Shown: positions 6,401 to 27,815 of the stretch, piece by piece
Layout of the letters: each line of letters starts with the position of its first letter
How positions within the stretch are numbered: position 1 is the first letter of the stretch
Assembly: GCA_022925895.1 (NCBI GenBank)
Contig: JAKSYS010000749.1
Span: forward strand, 1-27,815
Length of the DNA: 27,815 nt
Origin: Fragilaria crotonensis
Lineage: Eukaryota > Bacillariophyta > Fragilariophyceae > Fragilariales > Fragilariaceae
Direction: 5' to 3'
Made by a program: the position numbers and the translations under genes
The notes under the pieces: model-generated
The model's input: only the letters and a program-made list of their open reading frames with translations
Told to the model about the DNA's origin: nothing
The model's database searches: none

Positions 6401-6954
6401 GAATCTGACTGGTGGAGTCGACATGATTGCTGATGAAGATATCTTGGCTTTGGCAGACAGAGAAAACAGCAGCTAAATGTATTTGATGGAAGTACAGTAA
6501 AATCATTATGGTAGCAGCAGGTATACTAGAACTTGGCAGTGCTCTTCCCGATCCCCATCCTATCTATGTAGTACTAGGTACTAAACTTTGCATACTAGTA
6601 GCTAGTAGTAGCAATACATCTAATGCCATCAGGGCTTCTCAGTTACTACTACAAAATGGTCCTGGTGTTTGTACAATTTCTTATTGTTGTAAAGTCAAAT
6701 CAATTTACTCAGTTGTCGGCAAATCGTAATCATTGTACTTGGTGTACTACCGTAACCTTAGTCTACCTCCGGTGTTCAGCGATTTCAGTACACCAGTAAC
6801 CAGTACACAGTCTTTTACACGTTGCTTTTGTTCATAATCTGAAGTCTGAGTTAGAGATACAAAACATAATTCTTAAAGGTTTTCTCACTGTTTTACCCAT
6901 GGATTTTGTATCCCTTTATTCAATGCTGACTAGCTAGTATGATAGTCAATGCAA
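6401..6954. other. AT-rich spacer inside hAT, no gene seen
   Basis: No convincing coding sequence. Contains short runs of CTAGTA/GTACTA-type repeats (about 6520-6620, 6740-6810) similar to low-complexity tracts elsewhere in the window. Confidence 0.6.
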
Positions 6955-7310
6955 AAGCCCCAAATATACAGGGTGCAGGGTCCCATTGTAATGAAAAATC
7001 TGAGGGCTGAGATGCAGAACAAACCTTCTGTCAGGAATGTTGAGGGTGTATCAGAAATGTTTTGACACCTAGATTTTTGTAGTGAGCTTACTTATTGGTT
7101 GAAAGGCAAGTCAGTGCACAAGCCCCAAATATACAGGGTGCAGGGTCCCCATTGTAATGCAAAATCTGAGGCTGCATTGGAGATGCAGAACAAATCTTCT
7201 GTCAAGGATTGTTAAGTGTATCAGAAATGTTTTTGACACCCTAGGTTTTTTAGTGAGCTTACTTATTGGTTGAAAGACAAGATAGTGCACAAGCCCCAAA
7301 TATACAGGGG
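6955..7310 (+). repeat. Tandem units of about 168 bp, left palindrome arm
   Basis: Three occurrences of AAGCCCCAAATATACAGGG start at 6955, 7120 and 7291. Each is followed by the TGCAGGGTCCC...AATCTGAGG...GATGCAGAACAAA...GTATCAGAAATG...TTATTGGTTGAAAG series; the third is truncated after the GGG. Confidence 0.85.
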
Positions 7311-8730
7311 GTGTGATCTCAAGAGGGCTGAATGAAGAAAAATGTTCTGCCAGAGTTTGTCAAGTTTGCATTGATGATACCGACGGCATCCTTTGATTGG
7401 AGTGGGTATATATACCCATTGACTAGTGTGCAATTCAGTGGGTAATTTGCCACAATTGCCGATACAGGGTTTTGATTAATGAATATTCTGCAGTCAGACA
7501 TTAATATTCTGCAGAATTGTACTGTTGTATTTTGTTGAGTGTGTATGGATTGTATTGATGGCATCCTGAGATCCTTTCAACCTTTTTGCTCATTGACTTC
7601 TTGAAGATTCAATTATGATGCCAAAATGAACAAAAACACAAAAATGATCAATACTCATTGGATTTTGGATTTTAAAAATGGCATTTACTCCATCATCAAA
7701 TGCCTGAGACTCATTTACAGAAGCTCCAGCAACGAAAGTCAATGCTAGGGTTGTTATAGTGCAACTGACAAGCTCAGAACATAAAGTACTTCTGATTTGT
7801 GTGATTACAACACTAGTAGATAACATGTGATCGCATCCTAAATTTCACATTAACTTATGTCGCTAACACCAACACTAACTCCCAAAGCAAATATTGTTGC
7901 GGGAGCTTCAGCCAATGAGTCTCAGGCATTTGATGATGGAGTAAATGCCAGTTTTTGATTTTTTAAAAATCCAAAATCCATTGAGTATTGATCATTTTTG
8001 TGTATTTTTTTGTTCGCATTTTGGCATCATAATTGAATCTTCAAGAAGTCAATGAGCAAAAAAGGTTGAAAGGATCTCAGGATGCCATCAATACAATCCA
8101 TACACACTCAACAAAATACAACAGTACAATTCTGCAGAATATTAATGTCTGACTGCAGAATATTCATTAATCAAAAAACCCTGTATCGGCAATTGTGGCA
8201 AATTACCCACTGAATTGCACACTAGTCAATGGGTATATATACCCACTCCAATCAAAGGATGCCGTCGGTATCATCAATGCAAACTTGACAAACTCTGGCA
8301 GAACATTTTTCTGCATCTTTCATTCAGCCCTCAGATTTTGCATTACAAAGGGTCCCCGCACCCTGTATATTTGGGGCTTGTGCACTATCTTGTCTTTCAA
8401 CCAATAAGTAAGCTCACTACAAAAAACCTAGGGTGTCAAAAACATTTCTGATACACCCTTAACAATCCTTGACAGAAGATTTGTTCTGCATCTCCAATGC
8501 AGCCCTCAGATTTTGCATTACAATGGGGACCCTGCACCCTGTATATTTGGGGCTTGTGCACTGACTTGCCTTTCAACCAATAAGTAATCTCACTACAAAA
8601 TCCTAGGGTGTCAAAAACATTTCTGATACACCCTCAACATTCCTTGACAGAAGATTTGTTCTGCATCTCCAATGCAGCCCTCAGATTTTTCATTACAATG
8701 GGGACTCTGCACCCTGTATATTTGGGGCTT
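6955..8730. repeat. Large imperfect palindrome inside the hAT
   Basis: Left arm 6955-7733 (779 bp) is inverted and repeated as right arm 7895-8730 (836 bp), with a 161-bp unique spacer (7734-7894). Identity is about 95% by eye in the inner 400 bp, with small indels. Landmarks include the self-complementary GGGTATATATACCC in both arms (about 7405 and 8230) and ATTCTGCAG blocks. The outer half of each arm is made of about three tandem units of 165-175 bp. No open frame of note. Its mirrored arms should be able to form a long hairpin in RNA or single-stranded DNA. Confidence 0.88.
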
Positions 8731-8800
8731 GGCTGTGCATCGCCTTGTGATTCAACCAATAAGTAAGCTCACTACAAAAAATCCAAGGGTGTCATGATTA
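8330..8800 (-). repeat. Tandem units of about 175 bp, right palindrome arm
   Basis: Inverted counterparts of the left-arm units: TATATTTGGGGCTT at 8367, 8542 and 8717. A further partial unit (to about 8800) has no left-arm partner, so the palindrome is asymmetric at its outer edge. Confidence 0.85.
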
Positions 8801-9399
8801 TCACCAATGCAACTGAAAGAGACTTTGACAGGACCATCTTCCGCATCTCCAAGTCTGACCACAGAATATGAATTGAAGTGGGAACCCCCAATCTGCAAAA
8901 GTTGTGTACTCCGGGGTTTTGCATACTTGTTTGCGCAACAGTCAGTTTGTATTGAAAGTTGTTAGAATCAAGAAGGGTCAACAAAACAACTGAAGAAAAT
9001 ACAACAAACACTGACAGAATAATTTCTCCATGCCCATAGCTGACCGCAGTTTTTGCATTTGAGCACGGATCCTACACCAAGTAAACAAGTGTGCTGGATT
9101 TGCTTGTGCACTGAGTTTACCAGAAGTCAGTTACCATCAATGGGTGTCATCAATACCACACATAATAAAAACTCAACAAATATTGACCAAAACTTTCCAA
9201 TTCCCAGGTTGACCACAGATTTTGCACCTCTTTAACTAGGATCCCACACCCAAAGTGTTGATTTGTGCATTGAATTCAACAAGTGTTGATGGGCATGGAT
9301 AGTACTGACAATCAAAGGGTGCTGTCAATACACCCAATACACACTTAAGAAACCATCATGATGACAGCTAGTTTTTCATTTCCAAAATGAGAATTTCTG
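8801..9399. other. Diverged repeat-derived DNA in hAT, no gene seen
   Basis: AT-rich, with scattered phrases related to neighbouring units (TCTGACCACAG, TTTTGCA, GGATCC.ACACC) but no clean repeat boundaries. No supported coding region. Confidence 0.5.
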
Positions 9400-9940
9400 C
9401 ATAGTATTTTTATTGCATTCTGGGATCATGCATTGAATCTTGTTCAAGAAGTCAATGAGCTTGGAAAGTGAAGCGCTTCAAGGATGCCATCAAGCAATAC
9501 AATCAATGCACACCAAGCAACCCACACCAGTACAATTTTGTTTTATCTCACTGTCTGCCTACTGAATATCATCCATTTAAGTGGAAAGCATCAAATGTGC
9601 TATAGTTGCAAATTGCTCATTGAATTGCCCACTAGTCAATCAGTTTGCATATCCATTGCAATCAATGGCTGCCGTCAGTACTATGACCAAAAAATCTTCA
9701 TAATTCCTGACAGTTGCATTTTTTGCATCTCCATTTCAGCCCTCACATTTTGCATTTACAAAGGAATTTGGCACCCAGGACATGCTGTTCTTTGGGATTG
9801 AGGCACATTGATTTGTGTACTAGTCTATGAGTAAGCTTAGTACATACAATCCAAGGGTGCCATCAATATCACCAATGAAGCATTGATAGGACTATTTTCT
9901 GCAACTCCAAGTCTGAACACAGAATATGAATTAAATTGGG
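9400..9940 (+). repeat. Older diverged direct copy of the right palindrome arm
   Basis: The order of recognisable blocks matches 8010-8890: TTGAATCTT..CAAGAAGTCAATGAGC, AAGGATGCCATCAA..AATACAATC, a TTGCAAATT..CCCACTAGTCAAT block, AATC..GGCTGCCGTC, TCAGCCCTCA.ATTTTGCATT, and AATCCAAGGGTGCCAT. Divergence is far greater than between the two palindrome arms, so this copy is older. Confidence 0.7.
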
Positions 9941-10069
9941 GATTGTGACAATCAACATTGATTTGCGCCTCGCACCACACTAGGAAATGGTACTGGAGTG
10001 CCCTATGGCTACTAGCTACAGGATACAGGATACTTGGAGAAATGGAGTGCAATGGTCGATTCGTGTGGG

Positions 10070-10212
10070 CAGGTTAGACCACCCATTACCCACCCACGAT
10101 TTGCGCAGTGGAGCTTGGACCACCCATACCCACCCACCCACTGGTTGGGCGTGTCCATACCCACCCATTATCCATGGGTATGGGTGGGTACTGGGTGGGT
10201 ACTGGGTATGGG
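10070..10212 (-). repeat. hAT right subterminal repeat zone
   Basis: Dense TACCCACCCA motifs in both orientations around a CCATGGGTATGGGTGGG centre, able to fold into a hairpin. Related to 5065-5230. Confidence 0.6.
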
Positions 10213-10231
10213 TACCCAGTGCAGGACTCTG
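10213..10231 (-). repeat. hAT right terminal inverted repeat
   Basis: TACCCAGTGCAGGACTCTG, the exact reverse complement of 5046-5064. Confidence 0.93.
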
Positions 10232-10239
10232 GTCTTCAT
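10232..10239 (+). repeat. Right 8-bp target site duplication of the hAT
   Basis: GTCTTCAT, identical to 5038-5045. Confidence 0.92.
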
Positions 10240-10589
10240 ATAGAAAAATTCATGTGTATCTCTCTTACATGGCAAGATTGGCGCCGGCCCGGTTTCCAAA
10301 ATTTCGAACCCAAACTCTTGGCATGCCTTACAATTGTACTGCTATGTACGGGAGGCATGAAATTCTGGAAGCGGCTGTAGTATACGTTCGTACTCAGAGT
10401 ACTGCAAGGTACTCGGAGTACAATGTTGCACTTATTTTGCCACCATTTTGCAGCATTATAATATTTTTACTGTTGATGCTGCTGCTTGTGTTGTTCTCAT
10501 TGCTCCGTTTTGATTTGTGTTGGTGTCAGACAACACAATCCCCATTGACTACTATCTGCCAGGGGATCATTGAGGTTGTCTTCGATTTT
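10240..10589. other. MULE internal spacer, no gene seen
   Basis: This 350-bp stretch between the hAT and the tandem array includes self-complementary GTACTC..GAGTAC tracts (about 10388-10422). I see no supported coding sequence. Confidence 0.5.
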
Positions 10590-11340
10590 GATCAACGACG
10601 ACTGAACGTTGCTGTCGTCACTGCCATACAGTGGTTTCGCCCGCAGCTTTTTTCTGACTTGAGCAAATCGTTGAACACGAGCGGTGTGAATTGTTGGACG
10701 GAAATCAGCTACCCTCTCTGTCGCAGTCCCGTGCTAGACATCATCATTGGGCTTACTGCTGCGTTGTCCTCGATTTTGATCAACGACGACTGAACATTGC
10801 TGTCGTCACTGCCATACAGTGGTTTCGACCTGCAGCTTTCTTTCTGAGTTGCGCAAATTGTTGGACACAAATCGGTTACGCTCTCTGCTGCTGTGCTGAC
10901 GTCATCGTTGGGGTTACTGTGCTGTCCTAGATTGTGATCAACGACGACTGAACGTTGCTGTCGTCACTGCCATACAGTGGTTTCGACCTGCAGCTTTCTT
11001 TCTGAGTTGTGCAAATTGTTGGACGCAAATCAGTTACGCTCTCTGCTGCTGTGCTGGACGTCATCGTTGAGGCTACTGTGCTGTCCTAGATTGTGATCAA
11101 CGACGACTGAACATTGCTGTCGTCACTGCCATACAGTGGTTTCGACCTGCAGCTTTCTTTCTGAGTTGCGCAAATTGTTGGACGCAAATCGGTTACGCTC
11201 TTGACTGCTGCTGGACGTCATCATTGGGTTACTGCGTTATCATCAATTGTGATCAACGACGACTGAACGTTGCTGTTGTCACTGCCATACAGTGGTTTCG
11301 ACCGCAGCTTTCTTTCTGACTTGCTCAAATTGTTGTAACG
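10590..11340 (+). repeat. Tandem array of about 158 bp, five units
   Basis: GATCAACGACGACTGAAC marks unit starts at 10590, 10778, 10936, 11095 and 11251. Each is followed by GTCACTGCCATACAGTGG, TTTCTGA.TTG..CAAAT.GTTGGAC and ACGTCATC blocks. Unit lengths are 188, 158, 159 and 156 bp; the last unit is partial. ACTGCCATACAGTGG contains the inverted pair CACTG/CAGTG. Open frames across it simply read the repeat. Confidence 0.9.
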
Positions 11341-11382
11341 ACGTTGCCTTCTGATCAACAAGATACTTGAGAAATTTTCTCA

Positions 11383-13342
11383 TTGAAGGATACGGTGGCT
11401 GGAGTTTGTGGAAGGATGGATGGGGGCAATGAACGTATGGAGGGAGTGGGGGAGTTTCCCGTGAATGCCAGCAACTATCTCCTGAGCGCCAGTGGGCAAA
11501 CAAATCCTTGTCGCTCATCGATCCTTAATCTTGGGGACACACCAAGGCTTGTTAGTGCGGCACAGATGTCACAGGGTGCGAGTAGGGTGCCAGGGGTGTT
11601 ACCACGGGTCAGGAGAGCTCGTAAATCATGTCCATCTCAGGCCCAGGTTTTGGCTGTGTTACTCAAGTGTTTGCCTGGAGACTTCAGAGCCGGGTTTGGG
11701 GAGTCCTTCTCTCAATATGTGACTGAACTGGGTGCGTGCATTGCATGCTGGTGAACCTATGCTATGCATGACCCCCGTACGTTGGATTTGGGGTGCTCTC
11801 CATGGCTTATATGCATGGTTTCCTGGGGGTGCTGAGTTGCCTGGCTTCCACATCGAACAATTGGGCTCGCTTGAGGATGTGTTCTATCAATCAGAGGTCA
11901 CAACCCCATTCCATCACAATTTTATAGTGATGGATGTTATCTTGAATCGCTCATATGTCCCTGTTGTGAGGGAACATGCCATACGGGCAGGGACTGTTGT
12001 TCCTGTTGGATGTTCTGGACCTGAAGAAATTGCAGACTGTGCAGACGGGAGTTTCAGAACAGTGATCGCAATCATTCCGTCGGCAGGGGCCTTCTACTGT
12101 GCTCGGGAGCGTCGGAGTAATGCAGTTGGTCGTGCAAACTCCCTTATTCCACTGGACTTGAGTTGGTTACGATTGGCTAGTGGTGGAAGTGAATTCGGGC
12201 AGGGAGGTTATGTGAAACGCCTGCATCATCGTAGTTCTGCATGGAGGGTGTCGCTGACAGTTAGATCGCATATTGGAAGGGTGCACCAGCATCGATTAAT
12301 TCGGTGTGCTAGGCAGCTGCACGATGCTGACGGACCGGCTTTGCCTCCGGATGTCTTCGATGGAAGTCCATGCGAGTGGTCGGCTGCTGATCGGGCAGCC
12401 TTGTACAACCTCCGGCTAGCCGGATCGAACTCTGTGCGCTATGGTGGGGGTCACTATGCAGTTGGATGCCACTACTTTGTGTGCCGTCTACGTGCTGCAT
12501 TGTGGACCCGTGTGTCACCCAATTCTTGATGTTATGGTGGATCTCCTGATCGGTGTGACATGAAAGGCAGGAAGACTGCGATTCTTATCAGAAACTCTCT
12601 GTCACTTCTTGACAATGGGGGTCGGCAGTTGGTGGGCAGAGCATTGATAACATCAACTCCCACAATGCGGTTGTTGCCCGTGAACGTGCCGTTGGCGGTG
12701 CGAGGAATGGGAGGGGGATGTTGGGACCATGCACCCCATTGGAACTCGGGTACACAAGGACGGCGTGTCAACGAGCAGTTACACAACAAATGCTTTGGTT
12801 CCTGATGAGGTGTTGCGCGAATTTGTTCGGTCGCTGGCACTTGTGGGTCGGCATTGCTTTCCTGATGTCCTCACCGTCATCCAGGACTTGAGGCAGATAG
12901 TGGCCTGCTTCCCGTGTCACCAATGGGGGGTGATGGTCATTTTGGCCGTGTTGGGTATTCGGTTGACATGAGTGTCAACCTGGGCAATGCATCCCATTTT
13001 GATTGTGGTGATGCCTCGCAGGGCTTTGCAGTGTGGACCGAGACAATTCCTGGGGCAGCAAAAAATTGGTTCTTCCTAATGCCAAATGTTGTGGGTGTTG
13101 ATGGGAATGGGAATCGTTTTTTGGGCCTGGCTGTGAAACTGTCACATGGTGTTGCTATCAGTTGGGATGGACGAGTGCTTCGGCACTGTACATCATTGCA
13201 CACTACAGGGCAAACAAATGGCCCAGAGGAACCAAACTTGTGCTTTGGTTCATTCAGTGTCGCCAAGGAGAGTGTCCTTCAGGCTGGAAGAACCATATCG
13301 TTGCGGCGGGATATGGCGGAGCGGAGTGCAACGAATGCATAG
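11383..13342 (+). CDS. MULE-borne gene of unknown function; jelly-roll-like C-terminus
   Basis: Function not recognised. Coding character is seen in plus-strand frames joined by shifts: 11383-11754, 11732-12529, about 12600-12900 and 12914-13342. The last 700 bp is the most convincing: a block with NSHNAVVARER and GARNGRGMLG, then MHPIGTRVHKDG (from 12729), a VGRHCFPDVLTVIQDL stretch, then VNLGNASHFDCGDASQGF, NWFFLMPNV and LSHGVAISWDGRVLRHCTS. The HxD (HFD), an aromatic strand and a downstream H...WDGR..RHC recall the double-stranded beta-helix of 2-oxoglutarate/Fe(II) dioxygenases; this is a pattern match by eye only. A shift near 12888-12893 joins the QDL and LEADSG frames. It faces the transposase gene tail to tail inside the element. 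The 5' end is uncertain. Confidence 0.5.
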
Positions 13343-13550
13343 TACGGACGCAATGTGTTTTTAACGTGGTGGAAGAAGGTGGTGGCTATCGCTGCTCCTT
13401 TAAGTTGGTACATATAGGCTCTCACTATTAAATCTGTTGCAGTTGCTTGTCCAAGCGGAACCAAATGTGGAGAACCAAGGGAATGTCATACGCTTTGGTG
13501 GTTCGTTCCATATGCCTTCGCTTTCTTGTTGGACGGCACTCTTCAAGGAC

Positions 13551-16500
13551 CTATGTTTCCTTTGCTTTGACGTAAACAAACAAGTGTGAATCGCTGGATG
13601 CTTTCTCCATCCATTTCTGAACTGTCTTTGCTTGTGTATAAAAAGTGGTATTAACTTCCCTGTCGACCCTGCAAGCAGTTTCATGTTGCTTTACAACAAA
13701 GTTTCCACCGCGCTCAATAAGCTGGAGTTCAACAATATTGTTGTCCGGAGATGGAATGTGGGTGTTCTGCAGATTCTTGGATCTGTATATGCTGGTAGGT
13801 CGCGACATAAACTCGATAGCCTCTGAAGAATAGAAGACTGCTTTAATGGACAGATGACGAATAATCTGAGAGGGAGATGGAATGTCTTGTTGGAGCTCTG
13901 ATTAAGTTTCAAGGTGCACCCAGCATTGGGCACAACTACATCGTGGTGACTTTGATTCCCAACGTACGATACCATCGATTCCAGGAGGCACTGTTCTTCT
14001 TCCCAACAAAAGCCACCTTGTCCATCTTAGAGCACCGCTTGATCGTGTGCTGACAGGAACCACAATACGAACATTGTGCCTGCCTGCTACGTGCATCAGC
14101 CAAATGAGGAACAAGGTTTTGAGAGAGTTCCATCGACAAGGGTCTGCTGCTTTGCTCCGTGTGCTTTCCTCTCGTTCAGTGATTTAAGTCGCTTCTGCCG
14201 AACCTTACCGATATTGTGTCGCTGCATCTCAAAATTACTGTTGTGGTGTTCAGCAAATATGCCTTCTTTCCGAGATTCGGCATTCGGCCCGAATGCCCCA
14301 AGAAATTCTTCAGCAGACGACATAAATCCAAGAAATGGAACGGAAGAAGTTTGCTGCTGGCCACTGGCGGACAAACTCAAGGCATCTCTCATCCGAACCA
14401 AGACACCTAGGCATTCCATTCTTGCATCTTCATTTGGAAGACTTAGTGCTAGATTTGCAACACTGTTCGCAACATCAGTAAAATCGCGGAAGGTCACATT
14501 CCTCTTCCTGACTACCGGTAGAACTGAAGTTGCTGTGTTGTTGACGAGAATGCAAGAATCGTGTTCGATACTCTCAAGGTCGGGTTCTTTCCAAATGCAC
14601 ATCGCATCTCCTTCCCCAGCATCATGATAGTCTTGGAAAGGATCATTGTCTTCGCATCCATCTTCCCCTGCCGGCAGGCTTGTAGGTCTTCTGGGTGGGC
14701 TTGACAGCACAGGAGCAGTCTGCCGACAGAACAACTTATCGCCGAGACTGCCAATGTAAGGGTCCCTGGTTACAGACCAAGCTGACAGGATAGTGGTGTA
14801 ATCTGGATTCGGGGACGATACTGACAATGGCTGGGCGTGGAACTTGGAATCAACGAGCCCAAGCTTGAATTCTTCACCATGAAATGCAAAGAGATGTCGA
14901 CATTGAATCTGATATGCAACGAAGACATTGCATGAGCACTTAGATCCATTGACAAGGCGAGCCCTTTGGGATGAATCCCCAATCCGTCGCACTTCCTTTT
15001 GTTCTCCGCCACCACTCAGCAGTGAGCAGTATCCTGATGATTTCTTGTATTCTTCTTTGCAGATCTTGAATCCGCGCTTTGACAGTTTAACAAGCATAAG
15101 GGCAAGGGTTTTATCGCATGTGGTGTGACTGCTTGCTGCACTCTGTCGCCTGTACTGGTCTCGGATACTTGCCCTCTTATTGGCGAGCTCTTGCATGCGA
15201 AGGATGCAGTCCTTAACCTGCATTGCAGGATCATCCCAGCTACCACCCCCGATGCGAGCAACATAAGATGAATGGTTAGCCTCCGCAATTGAAGATCCAA
15301 GACGTTCTTCGTTACAGGGTATTGCATTGACAGAGTAGCGTGCAAATCTTCTCCTTGCAACATGAATGACGTTGTTGAAATAGTTTAAGAGACTTTGAGG
15401 CTCACCACGACAATCCATCATTGCTAGAATCTTGGACCTTATAGTCTCGTAGGCATCCAAGGAGTAGGACTCAAAAACCAAAGATCGCAGCAATCCACCA
15501 TAGTGGTTCCATCTGCTGGCTCCAAATTGTTTAAACCATGTACCGCACTCAGGGGACAATAAATGGTGCACATCATCAAGGAGGGAACATGAATCTTGAA
15601 TGCCAAGGGATGCGAGCAGACTGTCGCAAGTTACTAATCCATCACCAAAGATAGCATGAATGCTGTCTAGCTTTGCTTGCATGAAAAGTTACTGCAGCAC
15701 CGAAGCAGCCATGCGTAAGCCTCGATCCGCTCAGATATCACAATGGCTTCGCACACACAACCATGTGGCCATATCCATCAATACCAGTGACAGCAATGTA
15801 CGGGTAACAAAAGCTGTTTAGCTGGCGTTTCATACCGTCTAATGCAATCGAGGAGGCGCAGGTGTCCCAGTCAAACCTCATTGTGGCTGTTTGCCAGCAA
15901 ATTCCAACCATTGTATCATTCTGATCACGTTGAATGTCAAAGAGAAAAGATGGATCCTCTTGATGCAGTCGACAGAGGTATTGAACCACCAAGCACATAC
16001 TTCCGGATCAGAGAGTGCCTCCTTTAATGTCTCATTTGCGATGTCCTGTGCAACAGACAGATACTCTGGAGGTAGATTGTCACTAGGACTTAAAATGAAC
16101 TCCACATCTCCCTCTGAGACTCTTCCTTCCGACAGGAGAAGATCAAAGTCACCATTCATCAGCTTCAACTTGACCTTGGTCTTCACATTATTTATGAATT
16201 TGCTGGACACGCCAAAATCTTTTGGCAACATATCGCGAAGCAAACCTCTCATCATTCTGGCACTTGGCTTCTGTTCACTTGCAAGAAGCTGGACAATGGT
16301 GTGCAGCTTAAGATTCTGAGTGCGGGCAAGGTGCCTTGATGCATGTCCACCACTAGTCCATGCTGCCTTGAATTGTTCCCTGAAGGCTTACACTCTTTCC
16401 GTGCATAAATTGCACATGCGATATTCTAACTCCTCCCAGTTCACTGCCCTTCATCCCGGTAAAGTTAATCTTGAATTCACACCCACACTTTGATCTTGCA

Positions 16501-16820
16501 GATTTTCGCGGCATATAGGTTTTTCCATTTCTCTGAGCAGCCAATTCCGTCCTAGCTGTTTTCGTGCATCCTGGGCATCCCTTGATGTTGTTTCAGAACA
16601 ACAAGCTGCCATTCCGCGGTCAACAATAAAGAATCCAAACTTCGTTGCTTTTGACGCATTGCATCGATCAGGTCCCTCCTTGTTGCAAACACAGCTCCGA
16701 CAGGGAACTCTCCGTCAAATTCCTTCTTGATAAGATGTAAATTCTCCTCTCTGCTTGAGAATAGAAGATGTCAGTTGCGGTTGACGTGCATTCTTCTTGC
16801 TCTATAGGAGTGATTTCCAT
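13551..16820 (-). CDS. MULE transposase with FAR1-like, MULE and SWIM domains, frame interrupted
   Basis: This is the transposase for the surrounding element. Reading leftward from ATG 16820 there is a Cys-rich N-terminal region with a KCGCEFKINF core (about 16500-16470) like the FAR1/WRKY-type DNA-binding domain. A helical linker (16340-16000) follows. The MULE catalytic core (about 15980-15690) contains GICWQTATMRFDW, LDGM (first catalytic Asp), TGIDGYGHM and SERIEAYAWLL (likely catalytic Glu). A 528-residue open stretch (15682-14096) holds a SWIM zinc finger, KCSC...QCRH, near 14940-14890. A zinc knuckle CSYCGSCQHTIKRC (C-x2-C-x4-H-x4-C, about 14080-14035) and a C-terminal tail reaching about 13551 complete it. 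Frame changes lie near 16755, 16670, 16590, 15950, 15750, 15684-15687 and 14115. Family call strong; functionality unknown. Confidence 0.82.
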
Positions 16821-17057
16821 GGCTTGCAGTGGGTAAGAGGTGCTGATGTCGTGCTGGTTAATAGTGAGAGTGAGTTGTTAACTTTCACGAATGCACTCGT
16901 ATTTGAAAATGGTGCAGCCGTACAATTTCAAGTACATTCAATTTCAAAGTTGGGCGCGAATATCGAATAAGTTATGCCGGCGTGCCATTTGAATATGTAT
17001 AACGATACATGTATATGATTATGACATCATCAGATGACTGTTTTGGCCCCTTTCCCC
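16821..17057. other. MULE 5' leader between transposase start and right TIR
   Basis: About 240 bp, AT-rich, upstream of the transposase; presumably its promoter. No clear individual element can be assigned. Confidence 0.4.
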
Positions 17058-17132
17058 GATGACGTCGCGGCAGATTCTTATTGGTTTAGCGTTTTTGATA
17101 GCGCATTAATCGTTAGCGAATTAGGCATTTCC
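17058..17132 (-). repeat. MULE right terminal inverted repeat
   Basis: Reverse-complement match to 4901-4973, ending in GAATTAGGCATTTCC before the 10-bp duplication. Confidence 0.88.
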
Positions 17133-17142
17133 TGTTGATCTG
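17133..17142 (+). repeat. Right 10-bp target site duplication of the MULE
   Basis: TGTTGATCTG, identical to 4891-4900. Confidence 0.9.
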
Positions 17143-17612
17143 GCACCATGCGCCCGTAAAGGCCCGTAGTACTCCGAGCTACGAGTGGCACAGAAGCATG
17201 GACTAGACTATGGCAAGTAAAGGGCCTTGTGGCGAAAACTTATGTAGTGCATAACATCGTACTCATACTTAGTAGTAGTACAACTGTACTGGAGTACAAC
17301 TTAGTATGCTCGATATCTGGAGCACTCGGAGCTCGGAGTACAAAGGACTGGCGACCTATAATATATATCATACAGTACATTTTGCATAACAGTATACCTT
17401 GTTGTATAAAATCATAACGACACCGAATACGGGAACCCCGAGCTGACACACTCGAAAATCTTGACAAAAACTCGTCAGAAATTGGCGATGGCTGTCGCCG
17501 CAGAATATTAAAAAATTTAAAAATCCGGTACTTGTAACGGTACTGGAGTAAAAGGTACTGTACCTAAATCGTACCGGTACAATTAACTTGTGCTACAGTA
17601 CATGGGAGTATG

Positions 17613-17637
17613 CATATGACATACAGTATGTCATATG
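17613..17637. repeat. Perfect 11-bp inverted repeat with 3-nt loop
   Basis: CATATGACATA, loop CAG, TATGTCATATG. It lies in intergenic DNA directly before the heptamer array. No function assigned. Confidence 0.8.
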
Positions 17638-17643
17638 TCATTT

Positions 17644-17700
17644 CGATATGCGATATGCGATATGCGATATGCGATAGCTGCGATATGCGATATGCATATC
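17644..17700 (+). repeat. CGATATG heptamer microsatellite
   Basis: About seven near-contiguous copies of CGATATG, interrupted once by AGCTG, ending in the palindrome GATATGCATATC. Confidence 0.9.
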
Positions 17701-18102
17701 GTTGAGGACTGGAGGGAGGACCAGGAGAATGGCGTGCAACTGTTGAATACTGATTATTTCTGAGATTACGGAATACTGTATGATAAAAAGGTATTCCTAA
17801 AAAAAGGTACCACTAGGAACTAGCACTGTTCCGCGCTGAAGTCAAGAGCGCGCGACACTGCGACCTGCGAATGACACAATGGACGAATGAAGCTTAGCAG
17901 CACCTGCGTATAACTCGGAAAGGTTGTGATTTACTGGACCTCCCATTGCAAACTATCATATGTTTAACACACTGGTTGACTAGGCTTTCACAGCACAGGC
18001 AGCGTTGAATTTTCTGTCACTACCAGGTATCGTGGTTCACACGGTGGCATGGTATAGCCGTCCGTCAATGCATGGAATCCGACAGTGGCCAATACTAGAT
18101 AA

Positions 18103-19080
18103 TCATACAGGTTGTGCCCAATAATAGTCGCCAGTGCTCTGAGTAGGCTTTGACACAGGAACCTGCTTTTCCTGGTTGTATTGCGGCTGCCTTTTGTTTC
18201 TCGGCATCTCCTTCGCATCCTTAGCAAAAACCAAGCCGATCAATGTCATGACAATAGCAAATACCAGCCACAAGGTTGCCCAAAACCGATAGTCGTTGCC
18301 CCAATACTCTGCCACGGCGGCCGCATCGGTGGTCGACAACTGACCACCCACGTATCCCTGCGAAGATCCGTACAAATTTTTAATGTCGAGCAATGCGTTC
18401 ATGGAGCACGTAGCCGCCAGAAAGGCATATAGATTGTCCAGCCACAGAGCTGGGAGGAACCACCCACACAATACGAAAGCAAATCCTTCAATGAGAAGTG
18501 CAATGAGTCCGAAAGCGTTACGAACGTACAACGCACAGCTTAGCAGGATCGCTACGCCGAAGCCTATTGTACCGATAGTGGGACCAAGTACAGTTCGCCG
18601 AAACAGAAGCAGAATGCATCCCCAGAATGCAGTCCCAGTGTATCCTGCTGATGATACGAAAGCACCCTTCCACGTCGCTCCATCGTAGTAATAGTAGCAT
18701 GAACCGCTTCCGTCATGAAATATCTTAAGCTCTTTGATCTTGCCACCGACCAAGATGGCAGCCGTTCCATGTGACATTTCATGAACCCATGTGGACAACA
18801 ACTTGAAAGGATAAAGGATGTATCTCCCTGTGTCAAAGTTCAATAATATGATCATGACGAGGCAGGCTCCCAAAAGTATCTTTTCTCGTTGGAAGAATCG
18901 TACAGCCCAGCTTCGTGTATCGTCCTTCTGTTGTGCAGCAATGAGTGACTCCTCACGAAGGTCATTCCCACAGGCATCAGGCAAATCGCAGCTCATCGTT
19001 GGCTTCTCAGCTCTTTGACGGCTGTATGGGAATGTATGATCTCTATCGATGTCGACCCAGTCGACAGTCGGCAGATCCAC
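18103..19080 (-). CDS. M50B-like integral membrane metallopeptidase, copy 2
   Basis: Intact 325-residue paralogue of the product of 3688-4650. HEMSH is at residues 100-104, followed by the same GTAAILVGG and AGYTGTAFWGCILLLFRR blocks, the GWFLP.LWLDNL..FLAA.CSMNALLDI region and a C-terminal YYWAQPV. Similarity starts at Met29 (about 18996) with the LPDAC.ND.REESL motif, so the true start may be there. The N-terminal tail and the stretch before the terminal WAQP motif diverge most. Same orientation as copy 1, consistent with a tandem duplication later separated by the MULE. An intramembrane metalloprotease role is inferred from the family; the substrate is unknown. Confidence 0.85.
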   Translation of the reverse strand: MDLPTVDWVDIDRDHTFPYSRQRAEKPTMSCDLPDACGNDLREESLIAAQQKDDTRSWAVRFFQREKILLGACLVMIILLNFDTGRYILYPFKLLSTWVHEMSHGTAAILVGGKIKELKIFHDGSGSCYYYYDGATWKGAFVSSAGYTGTAFWGCILLLFRRTVLGPTIGTIGFGVAILLSCALYVRNAFGLIALLIEGFAFVLCGWFLPALWLDNLYAFLAATCSMNALLDIKNLYGSSQGYVGGQLSTTDAAAVAEYWGNDYRFWATLWLVFAIVMTLIGLVFAKDAKEMPRNKRQPQYNQEKQVPVSKPTQSTGDYYWAQPV

Positions 19081-19462
19081 CTATTTCTACGACCAGCCGA
19101 ACCGCACGGCCGACGTCGGCGATCAGGTATTGGCGAAAGAATTGATTTCACTATTGGAGGAGTGAACTTGACGTCTAGTCTACTGAGAATCTAAAAAATG
19201 ATGTTTCTGCACTCCGCACGTCGCGGTCTGTTACCGGTATAGTAGTATTTTGGTACCAGGTACGAGTAGTATAGTCTTAAGTATCATCATGCCATGCATT
19301 CATTCATGGAGGTTTTAGTTTTTTATAGCTCCAGTACACCAGCAACAAGCGCTGGTACGCTATAATGAGCGTATGTCATATACAGTACCTGGTACACAAG
19401 CAACGCATGATTTACATTTTAGCAGGACATTTCGTACACACAAGGCATATGTATCCTACTAT
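19081..19462. other. Intergenic DNA upstream of M50B-like copy 2
   Basis: About 380 bp with GTACCAGGTAC/GGTACACAAG-type short repeats; probably includes the promoter of the minus-strand peptidase gene. No gene seen. Its right edge ATGACATGTGTCAT (19461-19474) is an inverted repeat of 6 bp with a 2-nt centre and overlaps the start of the 54-bp duplication. Confidence 0.5.
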
Positions 19463-19516
19463 GACATGTGTCATGCTACCGTATTCCTCAGTGTTTCGTA
19501 CCCGCCAAATGCATAC
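19463..19516 (+). repeat. 54-bp direct repeat flanking the retroelement, left copy
   Basis: Starts GACATGTGTCATGC and ends CCAAATGCATAC. Identical to 26867-26920. It abuts A1 on its right. Confidence 0.92.
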
Positions 19517-19641
19517 AAGACAGATAGTCAATCTCTGCAGCTGTTTCTAGCTGATCGGAGCAGAGAGAAAACTCCACCAAAAAATACTTCATATTTTCTA
19601 CAAGTATTCGCGTGAGACGCGAATCGACAGGAAAAGGGATA
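19517..19641 (+). repeat. Split direct repeat A1
   Basis: Begins AAGACAGATAGTCAATCTCT and ends AGGAAAAGGGATA, 125 bp. It has an internal A-rich stretch (GAAAACTCCACC...) shortened in the right-hand copies. Contains a perfect 8-bp hairpin with a 3-nt loop at 19606-19624 (ATTCGCGT GAG ACGCGAAT). The gag-like ATG follows 4 bp later at 19646. Confidence 0.92.
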
Positions 19642-19645
19642 GTAC

Positions 19646-22332
19646 GATGGTCGACAATCCGGCGTTAGCCGAACTAGTCGCAGCGCAACCAGTTGCGCTT
19701 CAGCGTCCGTATGCCGCTGACCCAGGGACTCACGGGGTGGCTGGTCAAGGATACGCTCGAAGCATCCCCGGATGAGGTGCTTCGCATTTTGGCGGCGACA
19801 AATGCTAAGTACGCAAATGTCAATGCCACCGATGCCAACGCGGAGGATGCCACAAACATCCTCAAGGAATTGGCTGAGGATATATTTGCGGCCGAAGCGT
19901 TGGAGACTTTCCTGACGGTAGTGATACCTGAAGGGGAGTCAACTGTGATGGTCGTAACAAGAATGTCCCGATACCGCCCAGAACTGGGGTGGCCTCGCCG
20001 TGGTCGGGACAAGGCTTTGGTTTCGGGGAGGTCGAAGGAGGGCAGTTGCCCCCGTTGGTGAAGCTGCCAGATGCGTTGTCGTTACGACAGGCGTTGGCTC
20101 CGAAAGAGGTGCTCGCGCCTACGTGGTCCGAATGGAACACCCATTTCGGCATTGACCCTCGCGACGTGCGCATCCGAGGCGAGGAACTCATGGTTGTAGA
20201 GGGCGGAGATGACAATGGCAGGAGGGTACTGGTGCCCAAGTTGCAGTACACTCGTGCCTGGGCGCCGTACTTCTTGGCGGCACAACTCCGGAGCACGCCA
20301 TGAGACTGATTCGTCAGCTAACTCGGAACTTGGAGACCGAGCAACAAAGGAAGTCGCAGCCCCTTTGAGCGCTGGTGTGCCGCGTCGCGTGCGAAGCGGT
20401 ATTGTCGGTAATCTGCGCGCGCAGCAAGAACTACATCGCGTGGGTGTCGCCGGCGGGGGCACTCGACAGGGCGCTTACGCGTTGGAGCGCACGAAAGATG
20501 GCGCCGTATATCACGGTCGCAGTGCCACCGATGATGGCGGCGATGTATCCTCCAGCGGCGGCTGGCGGCGGAGAGGCAGCAGCGCCCATCCCGATGATGC
20601 ATGCTCCGGGATACGAGGCCGGCAATCGGGACAAGGTGTATAGCCCCTTCGAGCACGAAAGAATTCGGACGGCATGTGGACTTTCGCACGCCAACTACGA
20701 AGCAAGTCGTCCGCCCATTTATGCAGCCATGCTCACGGAAGGCCGGACAATGGCCAAAGTGGAGGCAGTATTGCAGAGATTCTTTGAACCTATTGCAACG
20801 CATTGGGATCCAGTGAAGATCTACGTGTCAACAGAGTTGACGCGCGATGTCAAGGACCTGCGCTTCGGCTACGGGAATGAGAACACGTACGACACGTGCC
20901 ATCGCGGAATCTCGCCGTTCGCGGTGCTGCAAGTGTCCATGGAGCAGCAGAACAAGCGTCGTAGGATTCAAGAGCGCGCCGATCGAGCAACGCACTTGTC
21001 GACAGACGACGTACGCGCGATGGAGGCGGAGCCCGGAAGCTGTCCCAGCACCTACTTTACTATGTTAGGTCTACTAAAAAAGTACATACAGTTGCTGACT
21101 GTTCTTTTTGGCCCGGGATGTGCCCACCTGGCGGAGGTACAGGGGGTCTATCAGATATTGTCGGCCAAGTCCGCCGTCTACGAGACGATGACGGCGGAAT
21201 TGGTCGCGGAGACTCTATGGCATGTCTTCATCGACGCCCGGGAGTACTTCAGCTACACGGGACCGGGATTGCCGGACTCGCAGTTGTTTGCCCTGCGCGA
21301 CTGTCTCAGGAGCTGCTCGTTGAAGGTGACGATTAACTGCCCGGTCTACATGCTCTTGGGACGTCCAGCCCCATCGGTGGCAGCAGTGGTGTCGCGAACA
21401 GGCAGTGCTGGCGGCGGCGGTCGCGGAGGAAGCCACGGGAGCGGTGGATCAGCATCGACGATGTCGACACTCACAGGATCGGCGGCGGCGTCGCGAGTGG
21501 CGCCTGAGATGGTTGGAGGAAAGTGGTTAAACCCGACTGATTCCGAGATTGTATCCATCATGACAGCCCTCCGAGCTCGGAAGCCAGGAGTGGATATGTA
21601 CACGATCATGCGGTCCCAGAAGCTACTGATGTCGGATGTTGGCATTGGGGCCGCGGGCAGTGCATGGACTTCATGTACTTCGGCGAGTGTGGCAAGTCGG
21701 GATGCTCGTACTCCCACGTCGCCGGAGCGGTGTCGGCTGGAAAACGGCGCGACGTGATCAAGAAGATGACAAAGCGGTCGCCGGGTATCTTGCCGAGGAG
21801 ACTAGTGCCGGTGGCTGACGAGCAGGGAAAGCATGACTGCGGGAGGATTACGGAGACGAGTAGCGACGACAGTACAATTAATACAACAGTCGACCTTACA
21901 TCCGTTAGTTCCACCACTACCCACATCATGTTCGTTCCCCAAACAGCAAAAATCCCGCCTACACACAGTGTAGACGCGAACTTGCGACCCGTGTTAATAT
22001 CGGGCGCGGGAATTACAGCACCATACACAGTAGCCGTACTCGCGGCAGCCGGTGAGCGACGGGTAACTGCCGCGTCGTCCGGCGTGCTCCAGAAGTCGGA
22101 CACGCGCCAGCGATCGGTGGACAGACCACCCACTCTGCCAGCGCACCAGTGTCGTACTGGCACTGACCCAGTCACTACGGACGTCACCCGGCACTCGAGG
22201 CCGGCACGACGGCCGCCAGACAGACCAGCGGAGTTTTCGTTCGGCGCGCGAATAAGCGCGGAAGATCCGGATCTTCGCCCAAGTCGAATCTTTGAGCCAC
22301 CCGGCGAATCACCCCAAAATTGCACAAGGTAA
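19646..22332 (+). CDS. Gag-like region of the retroelement, frame interrupted
   Basis: Starts at ATG 19646 (MVDNPALAELVAAQP) five bases after A1. Early segments switch frame: 19646-19771, about 19700-19985, 19989-20303 and 20300-20366. A long open part then runs about 20375-21655. It includes FEHERIRTACGLSHANYEAS and several helix-rich stretches (20650-21340), then a Gly/Ser-rich linker (GGGGRGGSHGSGG, about 21408-21450). A frame change near 21645-21658 brings in a CCCH zinc finger C-x8-C-x4-C-x3-H (CMDFMYFGEC..C..H, 21661-21717) and a Ser/Thr/Pro-rich tail to 22332. Nucleic-acid binding by a C-terminal zinc finger suits a capsid protein, but sequence similarity to known Gag is not claimed. 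Confidence 0.6.
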
Positions 22333-22362
22333 GCTTAGAAAATTAATGAACCGGAACCGTGG

Positions 22363-24150
22363 ATGCGATTCCACCCATTTGTAGCAACGTTGGAGCAGTG
22401 GTCAGATGGAGTACCAGTAGTTTGTAGTCCGCCATGGAGCCCAGTAGCAATAGAAACAGCGGTCGCGAGGGGTCCGCACACAAGTGCACTAACGCCAGAG
22501 GCGCGCCAACTTATAACGGAAGAGATGGAATACCAAGTAGCTGCAGGTTTCTCTGAGATTATGCTGTGGTCAGACGTCCAGGCGCTGCAACCAGAGCACC
22601 TCAAGGTATCCCCACTGGCGGTAATACCGCAAGTCGGCCGACGTGGCCGTCTGCTATTGGATTTATCCTTTGCCGTTCAAGCCCCCGCCGCTGGGGGGGA
22701 AGCGCGCCAGACGCGCAAATAGGCCCACAGAACCCCTTGCACCGTATGTGAACGACACAACAACTAAGCTATCGCCAGAATATCCTGTCAAAGAAGTAGG
22801 CCGAGTCCTCGTACGATTGCTACAGTTTATGGCCGCGGTACCCGCAGAGGAGATAATCAATTTTGCTAAGATTGACCTATCCGATGGCTTCTGGCGCATG
22901 TTGGTTGCTGACGACAGCAAATGGAACTTTGCGTACACACTGCCCGGTGAGGTCGATGCCCCAGTGCAAGTTGTCATCCCACATGCCCTCCAAATGGGCT
23001 GGACCGAAAGCCCGGGTTACTTCTGCGCCGCGACCGAGACCGGGCGGGACATTATGCAAGCAGTGATTGACGCCGGAACTGTCTGCCCCCCGCATGCGCT
23101 AGATGACTTTATGACACCACAAAACCCTGCTCGCCGCCAGACCAGTCCCGAGACGACAGTGCGGAAATGGCAAATGTCGGCCGTGTATGTCGACGACTAC
23201 ATTCTGGCTGCCGTGGAAGACCGGGCCGGCACTCTATTGCAACGCACCGGCCGGGCGGCGCTATACACCATTCACGGCCTTTTCCCGCCGCCCGCCCGCT
23301 CAGGCCACATAGGCGGTAAGGACCCGATCTCAGCAAAAAAGCTTGCAGCCGGTGATGCCCGATGGGCCCACACCAAAGAACTACTCGGCTTCGTCTTCAA
23401 TGGGAAAGACCGCACCGTGCACCTTACTCAGCGAAAAGCGGCAGGTATTGCCGACGACACCGCCAAGCTACTTAAGAAAAATAGAGTGGCACTTCACAAA
23501 TTTCAGTCCATCGTTGGAAAAATGCGTCACGTTACCACGATACTGCCCGCGCGCGCGGTCTTTACCCGCTCAACCGTGCCCTGCGCGGCAACCCAAAGGT
23601 CATCTCGCCCACGGGAAGTCCGCGCTGCGCTCCTTGATTTGCGGCAGCTGGTGGTCAAACTTGCTGACCGCCCCACCCACGTCAATGAAATCCTCCAACT
23701 CGGCGCCCCAGCCTACATTGGGTATTGCGATGCGAGTGCCTTCGGCGCCGGCGGAGTCTGGTTCAGCGGCACAGTGCCGCTCCCGAAACAGTCTGGCGAC
23801 TGCAGTGGCCGCGGGATATCACCGCGGCCGTCGTTTCTGAGAGCAACCCGACCGGGAAGCTGACTAACTCAGACCTCGAGATGGCGGCGTGTTTTGCACT
23901 TAAGCGTTCTAGAAAATGTAGTGCCTTCCTTCGGCACCTCCACATTTTTGTCCATAGTGATAATACTCCAAGTGTAGCATGGGTGACTAAGATGGCGACC
24001 AAAACGGCGCAATCCGATGCTGCACACCGACTCGTCCGAGGTTTGGCGTTGCGCCAACGTATGCTGGAATCGGCCCCGTGAGCATTAGTCACGTCGCGGG
24101 ACCGACAATGTATTAGCCGATATCGCATCACGCCCCATCCCCACCATTGA
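22363..24150 (+). CDS. Reverse transcriptase-RNase H, frame interrupted
   Basis: Copies the element RNA into DNA. The RT has an N-terminal FHPFVATLEQW and RLLLDLSF region, motif A KIDLSDGFWRM (about 22868-22900), a PHALQMGWTESPGYF block, motif C YVDDYI (23186-23203) and ELLGFVFN (about 23380-23400). RNase H follows: YIGYCDASAFGAGGVW (about 23713-23760, first Asp), WRLQWPRDI, NSDLEMAACFAL (Glu, about 23868-23900), HSDNTPSVAWVTKMA (Asp) and a terminal SHVAG..DNVLADIASR. Frame breaks fall at GGGGGGG 22693-22699, CCC 23782-23784 and CCCC 24075-24078. The chosen ATG 22363 gives the longest N-terminus with no stop. Family assignment is strong. Confidence 0.88.
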
Positions 24151-25323
24151 TGACGACTCTGCGTTCCTCACGCACTTTGATTCTGCCTTCCCATTACAGA
24201 ACAGATACTGGCGTCGTGCCAGCCCGCTACCCGCAGCTTTCCAATGTGATTTTGAGCTGCGCGGGCAGCTTGACAATGCAACGGTGGACACTAAAGTCCG
24301 GGCCGCCAACTGGCGGTGGTGGGGACAATACTGCACCGAGTGTGGAGTTGATCCCTGGCTCCGAGACATTAACCCGCCCACCCGACTCCAATTATTGTTG
24401 GGCTTTGCCGCACGGACTCGAACTGGATATTTTGGGAAGGGAAGGCAAGTTACTCCCAAACTGTTGAAAAGCCATGCGTCACGTGGCACAAGCCTTCATG
24501 CTGGAGGGATACCCTGACCCCGATGCCCTCTGGATCCAGCGGAGGCGACCTGGCTCTGCCCGTTACCCACTTACTTAAATCCTATAAAGACCGAGACCCC
24601 GTCCCCGACCACAAGTTGCCCTCCCGTTGGTGCCATCCAAATGGCCGCCGCCGCCCGCCTAGATGCTGCTGCTACCCCGGAGCAGGCAACTGCCCACCTA
24701 ATCGTCATGGCGTTTTATTTTCTCCTGCGGGTTGGTGAATATACACTACCCCAGCTCATGTCACCACCCGCACTATCCAGTTTCGAGTGAGTGACACGCG
24801 TTTCTGGCAAGGCCAGACGCTGTTACCGCCCACCAGCGAGGCAGCAACCCTCGCAGCGGCCACCTCTGTGACGCTTGTGATGGACAATCAAAAGAACGGG
24901 CACCGTGGTGACACCATCCACCAGGAGGCGTGCGACACGGATTTTTGCCCCGTCCGCTCAGTTGCGGCTCTTGTGAGTGCCATCATGGCCCAAAACATGC
25001 CGGTTTCTACCCCACTGAGTTTTGTACAACCAGGCATGCATGTGCAGCCTGGCCATATTCTCCATGCCGTCCGGCGGGGAGCACAATTAGCTCAGCTCGA
25101 GGCAAGCGGCTACCAGTTAACCCGGATCGGTGCGCACTCGCTGCGCGCCTCGGGTGCCATGGCCTTGTGGTTATCCGGTCATGGCCCGGAAGCGATTATG
25201 AAACTGGGACGCTGGCGCACCCAAACATTTCTTACCTATATCCACTCCCAAATCGCTGCCCTCACCACAGGCACCTCTCGCAAGATGGGGCGTTCAGTCA
25301 ACTTCCACAATGTGGGCGGGTAA
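24151..25323 (+). CDS. Tyrosine recombinase of the retroelement
   Basis: Expected to integrate the circular double-stranded DNA form. The N-terminal core-binding part (about 24180-24500) is read in broken frames with AANWRWWGQYCTECGVDPWLRDI. The catalytic part shows FYFLLRVGEYT (first Arg, about 24728), HSLRASG (His-x-x-Arg, about 25135-25155), LGRWRTQTFLTYIH (Trp in the second His position, nucleophile Tyr near 25236) and ends at TAA 25321-25323. The final 178 residues (24787-25323) are one open frame. Stops or shifts lie near 24465, 24570 and 24787. The complete R...HxxR...W...Y set supports the call. Confidence 0.87.
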
Positions 25324-25603
25324 ACTTCTAGTAGCCCTCAGACTGTACAATCGAACAGCATCGGACCCTGCTCTTTTCATTACGTTCTTAGGTTTCCGCA
25401 GGTTCCCTGGGCGGCCGTCCGGCGCCCGCATTTATCCGAACTGTTCGATCGGGACCGGCGCTAGCACCGCGCCGGCTTCCTGTGCACTTGTAGCTTTGTC
25501 AAGGGACACCTCCCGGTGGGGGGTGGGTGTGTCCTTGGCACCGTTTACAAGGCCGAATTAGCTGGTGCAAATACGACACCACGAAGCAAACGGCACCGAG
25601 TGG
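25324..25603. other. 3' non-coding region of the retroelement
   Basis: 280 bp between the recombinase stop and B1. No gene; GC-rich with a GGGTGGGTGTG tract near 25520. Confidence 0.6.
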
Positions 25604-25848
25604 GGGATGATCCGGGGGGAGGGAACAAACCCAAAGAACCTAGAGTTCTGTGGAAATTCCTAACCCTATAGATTCCTTTCTACGGCCAATATGCTAGTGT
25701 GGTAGTACTGTAGTTGCTAGCACTGGTGCCACGCGACCACTAGTGATGACGAAGGATTCTACTGGAGGAACGACATACTGTACACTACGGGGAGCTACTC
25801 CCCCAGGATATTCGAAGACCGAGCGCACAGCCCCCTATCTCTGATAGG
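25604..25848 (+). repeat. Split direct repeat B1
   Basis: From GGGATGATCCGGGGGGAGGG to CCTATCTCTGATAGG; repeated as B2 and B3. The end is a palindrome, CCTATC TCT GATAGG. Confidence 0.9.
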
Positions 25849-25960
25849 TTTGGCGTGCGCCACAGTCGACGAACAGACACACCCTACCGATTACCAGCTA
25901 CTGATGACGCAGCCCTTTGAAGTGCGTCAGTAGCGGTTGAGCGTAGAATGTATGGCCTAT
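25849..25960 (+). repeat. B-to-A linker, copy 1
   Basis: About 112 bp from TTTGGCGTGCGCC to TATGGCCTAT joining B1 to A2. It recurs between B2 and A3 (about 26360-26468) with small deletions but is absent from both termini of the element. Confidence 0.85.
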
Positions 25961-26072
25961 AAGACAGATAGTCAATCTCTGCAGCTGTTTCTAGCTGATC
26001 GGAGCAGAGAAAAAATACTTCATATTTTCTACAAGTATTCGCGTGAGACGCGAATCGACAGGAAAAGGGATA
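25961..26072 (+). repeat. Split direct repeat A2
   Basis: Matches A1 except for a shortened A-rich stretch. The hairpin ATTCGCGT GAG ACGCGAAT is at 26037-26055. Confidence 0.92.
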
Positions 26073-26109
26073 CCCACCCCCCCTCACCGGTGTGACTAGC
26101 ACACCCCCA

Positions 26110-26131
26110 CCCCCCGGGATGATCCGGGGGG
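26110..26131. repeat. A-B junction hairpin CCCCCCGG/CCGGGGGG
   Basis: A perfect 8-bp stem with a GATGAT loop, formed where the C-rich tract after A2 meets B2. The same arrangement occurs before B3 (about 26617-26638) but not at B1, which lacks the C-rich left half. Confidence 0.8.
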
Positions 26132-26359
26132 AGGGAACAAACCCAAAGAACCTAGAGTTCTGTGGAAATTCCTAACCCTATAGATTCCTTTCTACGGCCA
26201 ATCTGCTAGTGTGGTAGTACTGTAGTTGCTAGCACTGGTGCCACGCGACCACTAGTGATGACGAAGGATTCTACTGGAGGAACGACATACTGTACACTAC
26301 GGGGAGCTACTCCCCCAGGATATTCGAAGACCGAGCGCACAGCCCCTATCTCTGATAGG
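26116..26359 (+). repeat. Split direct repeat B2
   Basis: Near-identical to B1 (AATCTGC in place of AATATGC, one C fewer before TATCTCTG), starting 512 bp after B1. Confidence 0.92.
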
Positions 26360-26468
26360 TTTGGCGTGCGCCACAGTCGACGAACAGACACACTTACCGA
26401 TTACCAGCTACTGTGACGCAGCCCTTGAAGTGCGTCAGTAGCGGTTGAGCGTAGAATGTATGGCCTAT

Positions 26469-26579
26469 AAGACAGATAGTCAATCTCTGCAGCTGTTTCT
26501 GGCTGATCGGAGCAGAGAAAAATACTTCATATTTTCTACAAGTATTCGCGTGAGACGCGAATCGACAGGAAAAGGGATA
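26469..26579 (+). repeat. Split direct repeat A3
   Basis: Near-identical to A2 (TTTCTGGCTGATC in place of TTTCTAGCTGATC). Hairpin at 26544-26562. The A2-A3 spacing is 508 bp. Confidence 0.92.
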
Positions 26580-26622
26580 CCCACCCCCCCTCACCGGTGT
26601 GACTAGCACACCCCCACCCCCC

Positions 26623-26866
26623 GGGATGATCCGGGGGGAGGGAACAAACCCAAAGAACCTAGAGTTCTGTGGAAATTCCTAACCCTATAGATTCCTTTCT
26701 ACGGCCAATCTGCTAGTGTGGTAGTACTGTAGTTGCTAGCACTGGTGCCACGCGACCACTAGTGATGACGAAGGATTCTACTGGAGGAACGACATACTGT
26801 ACACTACGGGGAGCTACTCCCCCAGGATATTCGAAGACCGAGCGCACAGCCCCCTATCTCTGATAG
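26623..26866 (+). repeat. Split direct repeat B3, right terminus
   Basis: Matches B2 and ends within the terminal palindrome at CTGATAG, where sequence switches to the 54-bp flank repeat. Confidence 0.92.
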
Positions 26867-26920
26867 GACATGTGTCATGCTACCGTATTCCTCAGTGTTT
26901 CGTACCCGCCAAATGCATAC
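26867..26920 (+). repeat. 54-bp direct repeat flanking the retroelement, right copy
   Basis: Identical to 19463-19516. Downstream sequence (ATCGAAAATG...) is unrelated to A1, so this copy continues into the right flank. Confidence 0.92.
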
Positions 26921-27085
26921 ATCGAAAATGCCAAAAGGGTACAGAACACCGAGGAAAATTGGAAAACGGACAGACCAATTTAAGGTGCGCCGAAGTTTGA
27001 ATCCACGCTCAACATCCCGCCTTCTGAGTTCTGACACAGTTCTTCTCTTGACACCATTGTTCCTCTGACAACTTTCTTTTCAAAC

Positions 27086-27815
27086 ATGCCTCGCCGCAAA
27101 GTGTTTTCTAATCGAGAGAAGCTGCACATTCTGTCCCAGATCAATGAAAGGCAAAGCGCAGGTGAGAGTTTGAGGTCGTGTTGCCGGTACTTTGATCGTC
27201 TCCAACCATCACAAGTTCGACGATGGAGGAACGCACAACAAGACATGAGCAACCCAGAGGCTGCAAATCGCGGGTCTGTTCACGTTGGCAGGGGTACAAT
27301 TCTTTCTTCCTTCCAAGAAGAATTGATGCGCTGGTTTTTTGAGCTTCGAGAACAAGGCTTCATGGTTTCTGTTCGATTATTCAGCACCACCCTCAGGGCA
27401 TGTGAGCTGAGCGCATCATTCCGAAGGAAGACGAACAGGTCGAAAGATTGCGCTATCGAAACCAAGAATCGTCGTACTTCGCGCTGTCACACACAAATGT
27501 CAGCACCCTCCAGGACAGCTAACGAGAGAGGCCCTTGATTTCATCGAATACGCAAGACCAAAGATTGTTGGGCCAAACCGACATGCAGCATTTGTGCTGA
27601 ACATGGATCAGACACCCATATTTTTGATATGTCAAGTGGAAGGACACTTAGCACATCAGGTGAGCGAACTGTTAATGGGCGTACAACATCATCATCAACA
27701 TTACGAGTGATGGTGTCTGTGACTGTCACCGCATCAGGTGAGCTTCTTAAACCAATGATTGTCTTCAAAGGTAAGCCTGGTGCAAGGCTTGAAACACGTG
27801 AATTCCCAACCTACC
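27086..27815 (+). CDS. Pogo/DDE_1-type transposase, 5' part, frame interrupted
   Basis: A transposase of the Tc1-mariner/pogo type, cut off by the window end. ATG 27086 opens an N-terminal helix-turn-helix-like region (VFSNREKLHILSQI, then SLRSCCRYF and QPSQVRRWR), followed by GRGTILSSFQEELMRWF and a GFMVSVRL segment. The catalytic domain begins at about 27530 with ALDFIEYARPK and FVLNMDQTPIF, the first Asp of DDE_1 domains. SGERTVNG and KPMIVFKGKPG blocks follow, with the P.IVFKG motif typical of this family. Frame changes are needed between about 27440 and 27470 and at TTTTT 27621-27625. The second Asp and third acidic residue lie beyond the window. Whether the retroelement landed in this transposon's upstream region cannot be decided here. 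Confidence 0.75.

Follow-up and report, generated by a model that had tools for sequence, protein, structure and literature searches.

Ngaro elements are built on split direct repeats in the order A1-[ORFs]-B1A2B2 (PMC8547959), and the split-direct-repeat plan is also reported for Ngaro, PAT-like, and VIPER elements (PMC6681497). The Ngaro element of Cafeteria burkhardae is described with this order, A1-[ORFs]-B1-A2-B2, and with gag, RT, and tyrosine recombinase (YR) positions one after the other (PMC8547959). The Dictyostelium element DIRS-1 differs in having inverted terminal repeats (PMC3266345). Its transcript is described as lacking parts of the ends, which an internal region is expected to restore before circularization by serving as template for the circle junction; the same account calls the replication mechanism experimentally not fully proven (PMC5633606). 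In the model given for DIRS1-like elements, the circle integrates without duplicating the target (PMC3266345). How tyrosine-recombinase retrotransposons integrate is described largely through models. Direct repeats also flank YR-encoding polinton-like viruses (PMC12220804) and occur at the ends of Cryptons, which are likewise YR elements (PMC3212892). Both differ from the element described here: polinton-like viruses are DNA virus-like, with shorter putative repeats of 7-23 bp that are often offset or partly symmetric (PMC12220804), and Cryptons are described with 4-6 bp repeats that are regarded as recombination substrates and without an RT (PMC3212892).

The present element lies in a window of 27,815 bp, the whole stretch of Fragilaria crotonensis DNA that was analyzed, and is bracketed by an exact direct repeat, T. 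The maximal exact match spans 55 bp, with a left copy at 19463-19517 and a right copy at 26867-26921 that adjoin the outer ends of the left (A1) and right (B3) terminal repeats. T begins with a G, the base on which B ends, and closes with an A, the base with which the A repeat opens, so that one base at each junction, on the inner edge of either copy, can be assigned to either side and the duplication is certain for 53 bp with a maximum of 55 bp. The 54 identical bases that the initial annotation placed outside A1 and B3 were borne out, as this length falls inside the range of 53-55 bp; its start at 19463 was exact, and its end at 26920 was one base short of the match. No 12-mer of T recurred elsewhere in the 27,815-bp window on either strand, and by arithmetic about 3e-25 exact pairs of 55 bases would be expected by chance in 27.8 kb. 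The palindrome ATGACA-TG-TGTCAT (19461-19474), inside which the left copy does start, is present and carries no weight: arms at least as long arose in 56/300 shuffles of its 78-bp stretch, and it was rejected as a recombination site.

Alignment of the repeats with one another revealed the forward-strand order A1, coding region, B1, C1, A2, D1, B2, C2, A3, D2, B3 between the T copies. A1 (125 bp, 19517-19641) was delimited by its alignment to A2 (25961-26072) and A3 (26469-26579), and the B repeats occupy 25604-25848 (B1), 26116-26359 (B2), and 26623-26867 (B3). The segment C, confined to the internal B-A junctions, measures 112 bp in C1 (25849-25960) and 109 bp in C2 (26360-26468), and a 43-bp C-rich linker is identical in D1 (26073-26115) and D2 (26580-26622). 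The C-A-D-B unit is doubled at a spacing of 507-512 bp, giving three A and three B repeats, and the stretches 25604-26359 and 26116-26867 share 98.8% identity over 757 aligned positions. The split direct repeats of the Ngaro/PAT-like plan are all present, followed by a further A3-B3 unit; relative to those elements, this one adds one C-A-D-B unit, the 109-112 bp C, the 43-bp D, and the 53-55 bp flanking duplication. In the alignment, A1 holds 13-14 bp at 19566-19578 that are missing from A2 and A3; although the T copies are identical, the last round apparently did not copy A2 over A1 at this position. A 6-bp hairpin, CCTATC-TCT-GATAGG (26853-26867), lies flush with the end of B3 and was not significant (reached in 26/300 shuffles). 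C1 also carries a dyad with 7-bp arms at 25905-25929; as a recombinase site it is suggestive at best, its arm length being reached in 32/300 shuffles for C1 and 26/300 for C2.

The coding region between A1 and B1 contains forward-strand open frames at the positions of gag, RT, and YR. The frame in the gag position (20369-21757) and the next (21541-22332), in which a C-C-C-H-like stretch CMDFMYFGECGKSGCSYSH was recognized by eye, had no Pfam match at E 0.1. An RT-like frame (22625-23863) matched RVT_1 at E 0.19, below the cut-off, and contains FAKIDLSDGFW and YVDDY, which by eye we take to be RT motifs. A tyrosine-recombinase-like frame (24739-25323) matched Phage_integrase in Pfam at E 0.023, also below the cut-off, and the integrase family PHROG 216 at E 0.0019; its HSLR, GRW, and TY are presumably tyrosine-recombinase motifs, again judged by eye. 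Predicted structures were of low confidence, with a mean pLDDT of 33.0 for the YR-like and 30.5 for the RT-like frame. No RNase H profile matched the element frames scanned, in which RVT_1 also reached E 0.19, and no methyltransferase domain was matched in these frames, where RT and YR likewise scored weakly; such a domain is a feature of DIRS/PAT and is not known from Ngaro. Rfam gave no match at the gathering threshold. Taken together, the repeat plan and the motifs point to a DIRS-order-like element.

Several frame changes occur within the coding region and may reflect decay or sequencing error. These changes, together with small indels in the element, which may likewise be sequencing error, could be set beside the exact length of T as signs that the duplication was created by the assembly, when contigs from a heterozygous or collapsed locus were joined, since assemblers commonly use a k-mer size of 55. 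Against such an origin, the window contains no run of N, the assembly kept apart two near-identical units of 507-512 bp, and the T-A1 and the B3-T junction would both need to occur in reads; we regard an artefact as very unlikely.

The position of T relative to the repeats bears on whether it belongs to the host or to the element. Exact identity with A2 and A3 sets in at 19517 for A1, and exact identity with B1 and B2 stops at 26867 for B3, in both cases at the inner edge of T, although BLAST carries the A1-A2 match six bases further out, to 19511, with mismatches. Because the A and B identities stop where T begins, the ends of the element are marked independently of T. Moreover, T is missing from both of the internal B-A junctions (2/2), where the unrelated segment C of 109-112 bp is found instead, and its likeness to C1, A1, B1, D, or the element body was no greater than that of shuffled T. 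T could conceivably belong to the termini of the element and recur at the ends of every copy, and it does adjoin both ends; with C rather than T at both internal junctions and with T pairing with the right flank, this is the least probable of the explanations considered and membership of T in the element is highly improbable.

The pairing in question is an inverted repeat across 26888-26956, in which positions 26888-26907 of T face 26937-26956 of the right flank with 17/20 bases paired. Its score was reached by 2/5000 dinucleotide shuffles of T against the right flank and in none of the 258 comparisons made between T and segments from 1-19300. Having come out best among 14 comparisons, it gives moderate support only, and it suggests that T is host DNA. 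A direct repeat in the left flank that matches T in part was discarded, as 12/300 shuffles and 166/2000 dinucleotide shuffles reached it. To the right of the insertion, the only profile match in 27035-27815 (+) was HTH_Tnp_1 (Pfam E 0.067, below the cut-off). By eye, the frames there read like a broken gene that we presume to be for a DDE-type transposase. The 5' end of the transposon to which these frames would belong may include T or be close to it.

The published DIRS replication scheme implies that the internal B-A junction should equal the joined outer ends of the element. At this locus it does not: C sits between B and A at both internal junctions and at neither outer end. The single copy in the window also departs from integration without target-site duplication, having 53-55 bp repeated at both ends. 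The absence of C from both outer ends is, we think, the most telling feature. For a DIRS-order-like element whose direct repeats are split, the expected integrating form would be a circle carrying the B-C-A junction, and a copy entering as such a circle should bear one part of the junction segment at each end. It might also be that C is confined to the interior in all members of the family, in which case its absence from the outer ends need not be abnormal.

The reading we prefer as the simplest, with confidence about evenly divided for and against, is that T is a target-site duplication left when a linear copy devoid of C was joined into a staggered break whose overhangs were filled in. A linear DNA running from A to B, whether a cDNA of RNA length or a circle that had been broken and trimmed, would have been joined into a chromosome break with strands cut about 53 bases apart, fill-in of the overhangs would have copied the target on both sides, and the joining would have proceeded without catalysis by the element's own recombinase. 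This repair route is drawn from the one copy in the window. It has a counterpart in mouse and human cells, where filling in of 43-base overhangs at breaks is reported to give tandem duplications (PMC8355091). In those experiments the size of the duplication is set by the length of the overhang, to which T can be likened; the copies described there have no large insert between them, unlike the T pair (PMC8355091). A copy without the junction segment at its ends and with so long a target duplication would represent a naturally occurring integration that bypassed the circle.

The TATA-like stretch CTATAAGA, found by eye, spans the C-A boundary and would place the transcript start inside A, so that the first bases of A1 would fall outside an RNA-length copy. 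Judged from these bases, a trimmed circle would be favored over a cDNA or other RNA-length intermediate. No poly(A) was found at the end of B3, and poly(A)-primed retroposition was rejected for this reason.

The same final structure would result if T were older than the insertion, either as a tandem T-T site split by the element or through a B3-T-A1 circle that recombined with a chromosomal T by homology. Both versions are compatible with the window, and each carries a cost: the first needs an insertion exactly at the boundary of two copies, and the second presupposes an earlier capture of T, from the very sequence that served as target. In addition, the inverted repeat links T to the right flank and not to the element. 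An older T is accordingly rather unlikely in our estimation. The options listed in the initial annotation were integration through a long stagger or through repair, a circle with captured flank, and a pre-existing repeat. The first is the best supported, because T is host-like, flush with both ends of the element, and absent from the internal junctions; the captured-flank circle needs an extra earlier event, and the tandem repeat is less likely owing to the exact placement that it demands.

Fill-in of a break as a one-off event may be contrasted with a mechanism proper to the family, in which the lineage would regularly insert via a wide staggered cut and leave duplications of about 50 bp, using a nuclease that is element-encoded or recruited. 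The locus looks orderly, with both junctions clean and gap-free and all repeats intact, and putative duplications of 7-23 bp are reported for tyrosine-recombinase polinton-like viruses (10/232 in one cluster), the nearest parallel seen (PMC12220804). On the other side, the window offers no second copy to show the duplication, no nuclease domain was recognized in the frames scanned (although RT and YR were also barely recognized there), and the account of DIRS1-like integration proceeds without duplication (PMC3266345). We consider a regular mechanism of this kind unlikely. A more elaborate version, which we find distinctly doubtful, would have a DIRS-order-like lineage make the same wide cut and ~50 bp duplication and exchange the segment between B and A in each cycle, that segment being captured target DNA (C at present, T in the next round).

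Among the literature matches listed on target duplications or insertion sites of DIRS, Ngaro, and PAT elements, covering titles and the beginnings of abstracts, none concerned a long duplication at a DIRS-order element. Searches for relatives in viral contigs gave six stretches that matched the pattern of the RT-like frame, 32 for a 50-aa stretch of the YR and seven for the transposase-like frame of the right flank, of which none was confirmed; the YR-like frame as a whole and two DNA patterns had no match in these contigs. In prokaryotic genomes, 22 stretches matched the pattern of the YR-like frame and again none was confirmed.

The remainder of the window holds further genes and repeats. 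The frames at 3688-4662 (-) and 18103-19080 (-) are diverged copies of one gene, with 69.8% DNA identity over 788 aligned positions, and the second matches Peptidase_M50B (Pfam E 1.4e-37). A large inverted-repeat structure at 6944-8794 resembles a foldback or MITE-type element; its arms include 7332-7473 and 8175-8316, which are 99% complementary, and its outer parts also contain tandem units of 171-175 bp. A tandem array with a 158-159 bp unit in about four copies occupies 10575-11335. The 530-aa open frame at 14096-15688 (-), which matches a SWIM zinc finger below threshold (E 0.0037), possibly derives from another transposable element, and a single open frame at 1234-2388 (+) encodes both AAA (E 2.6e-11) and IPT/TIG (E 2.9e-9) domains.
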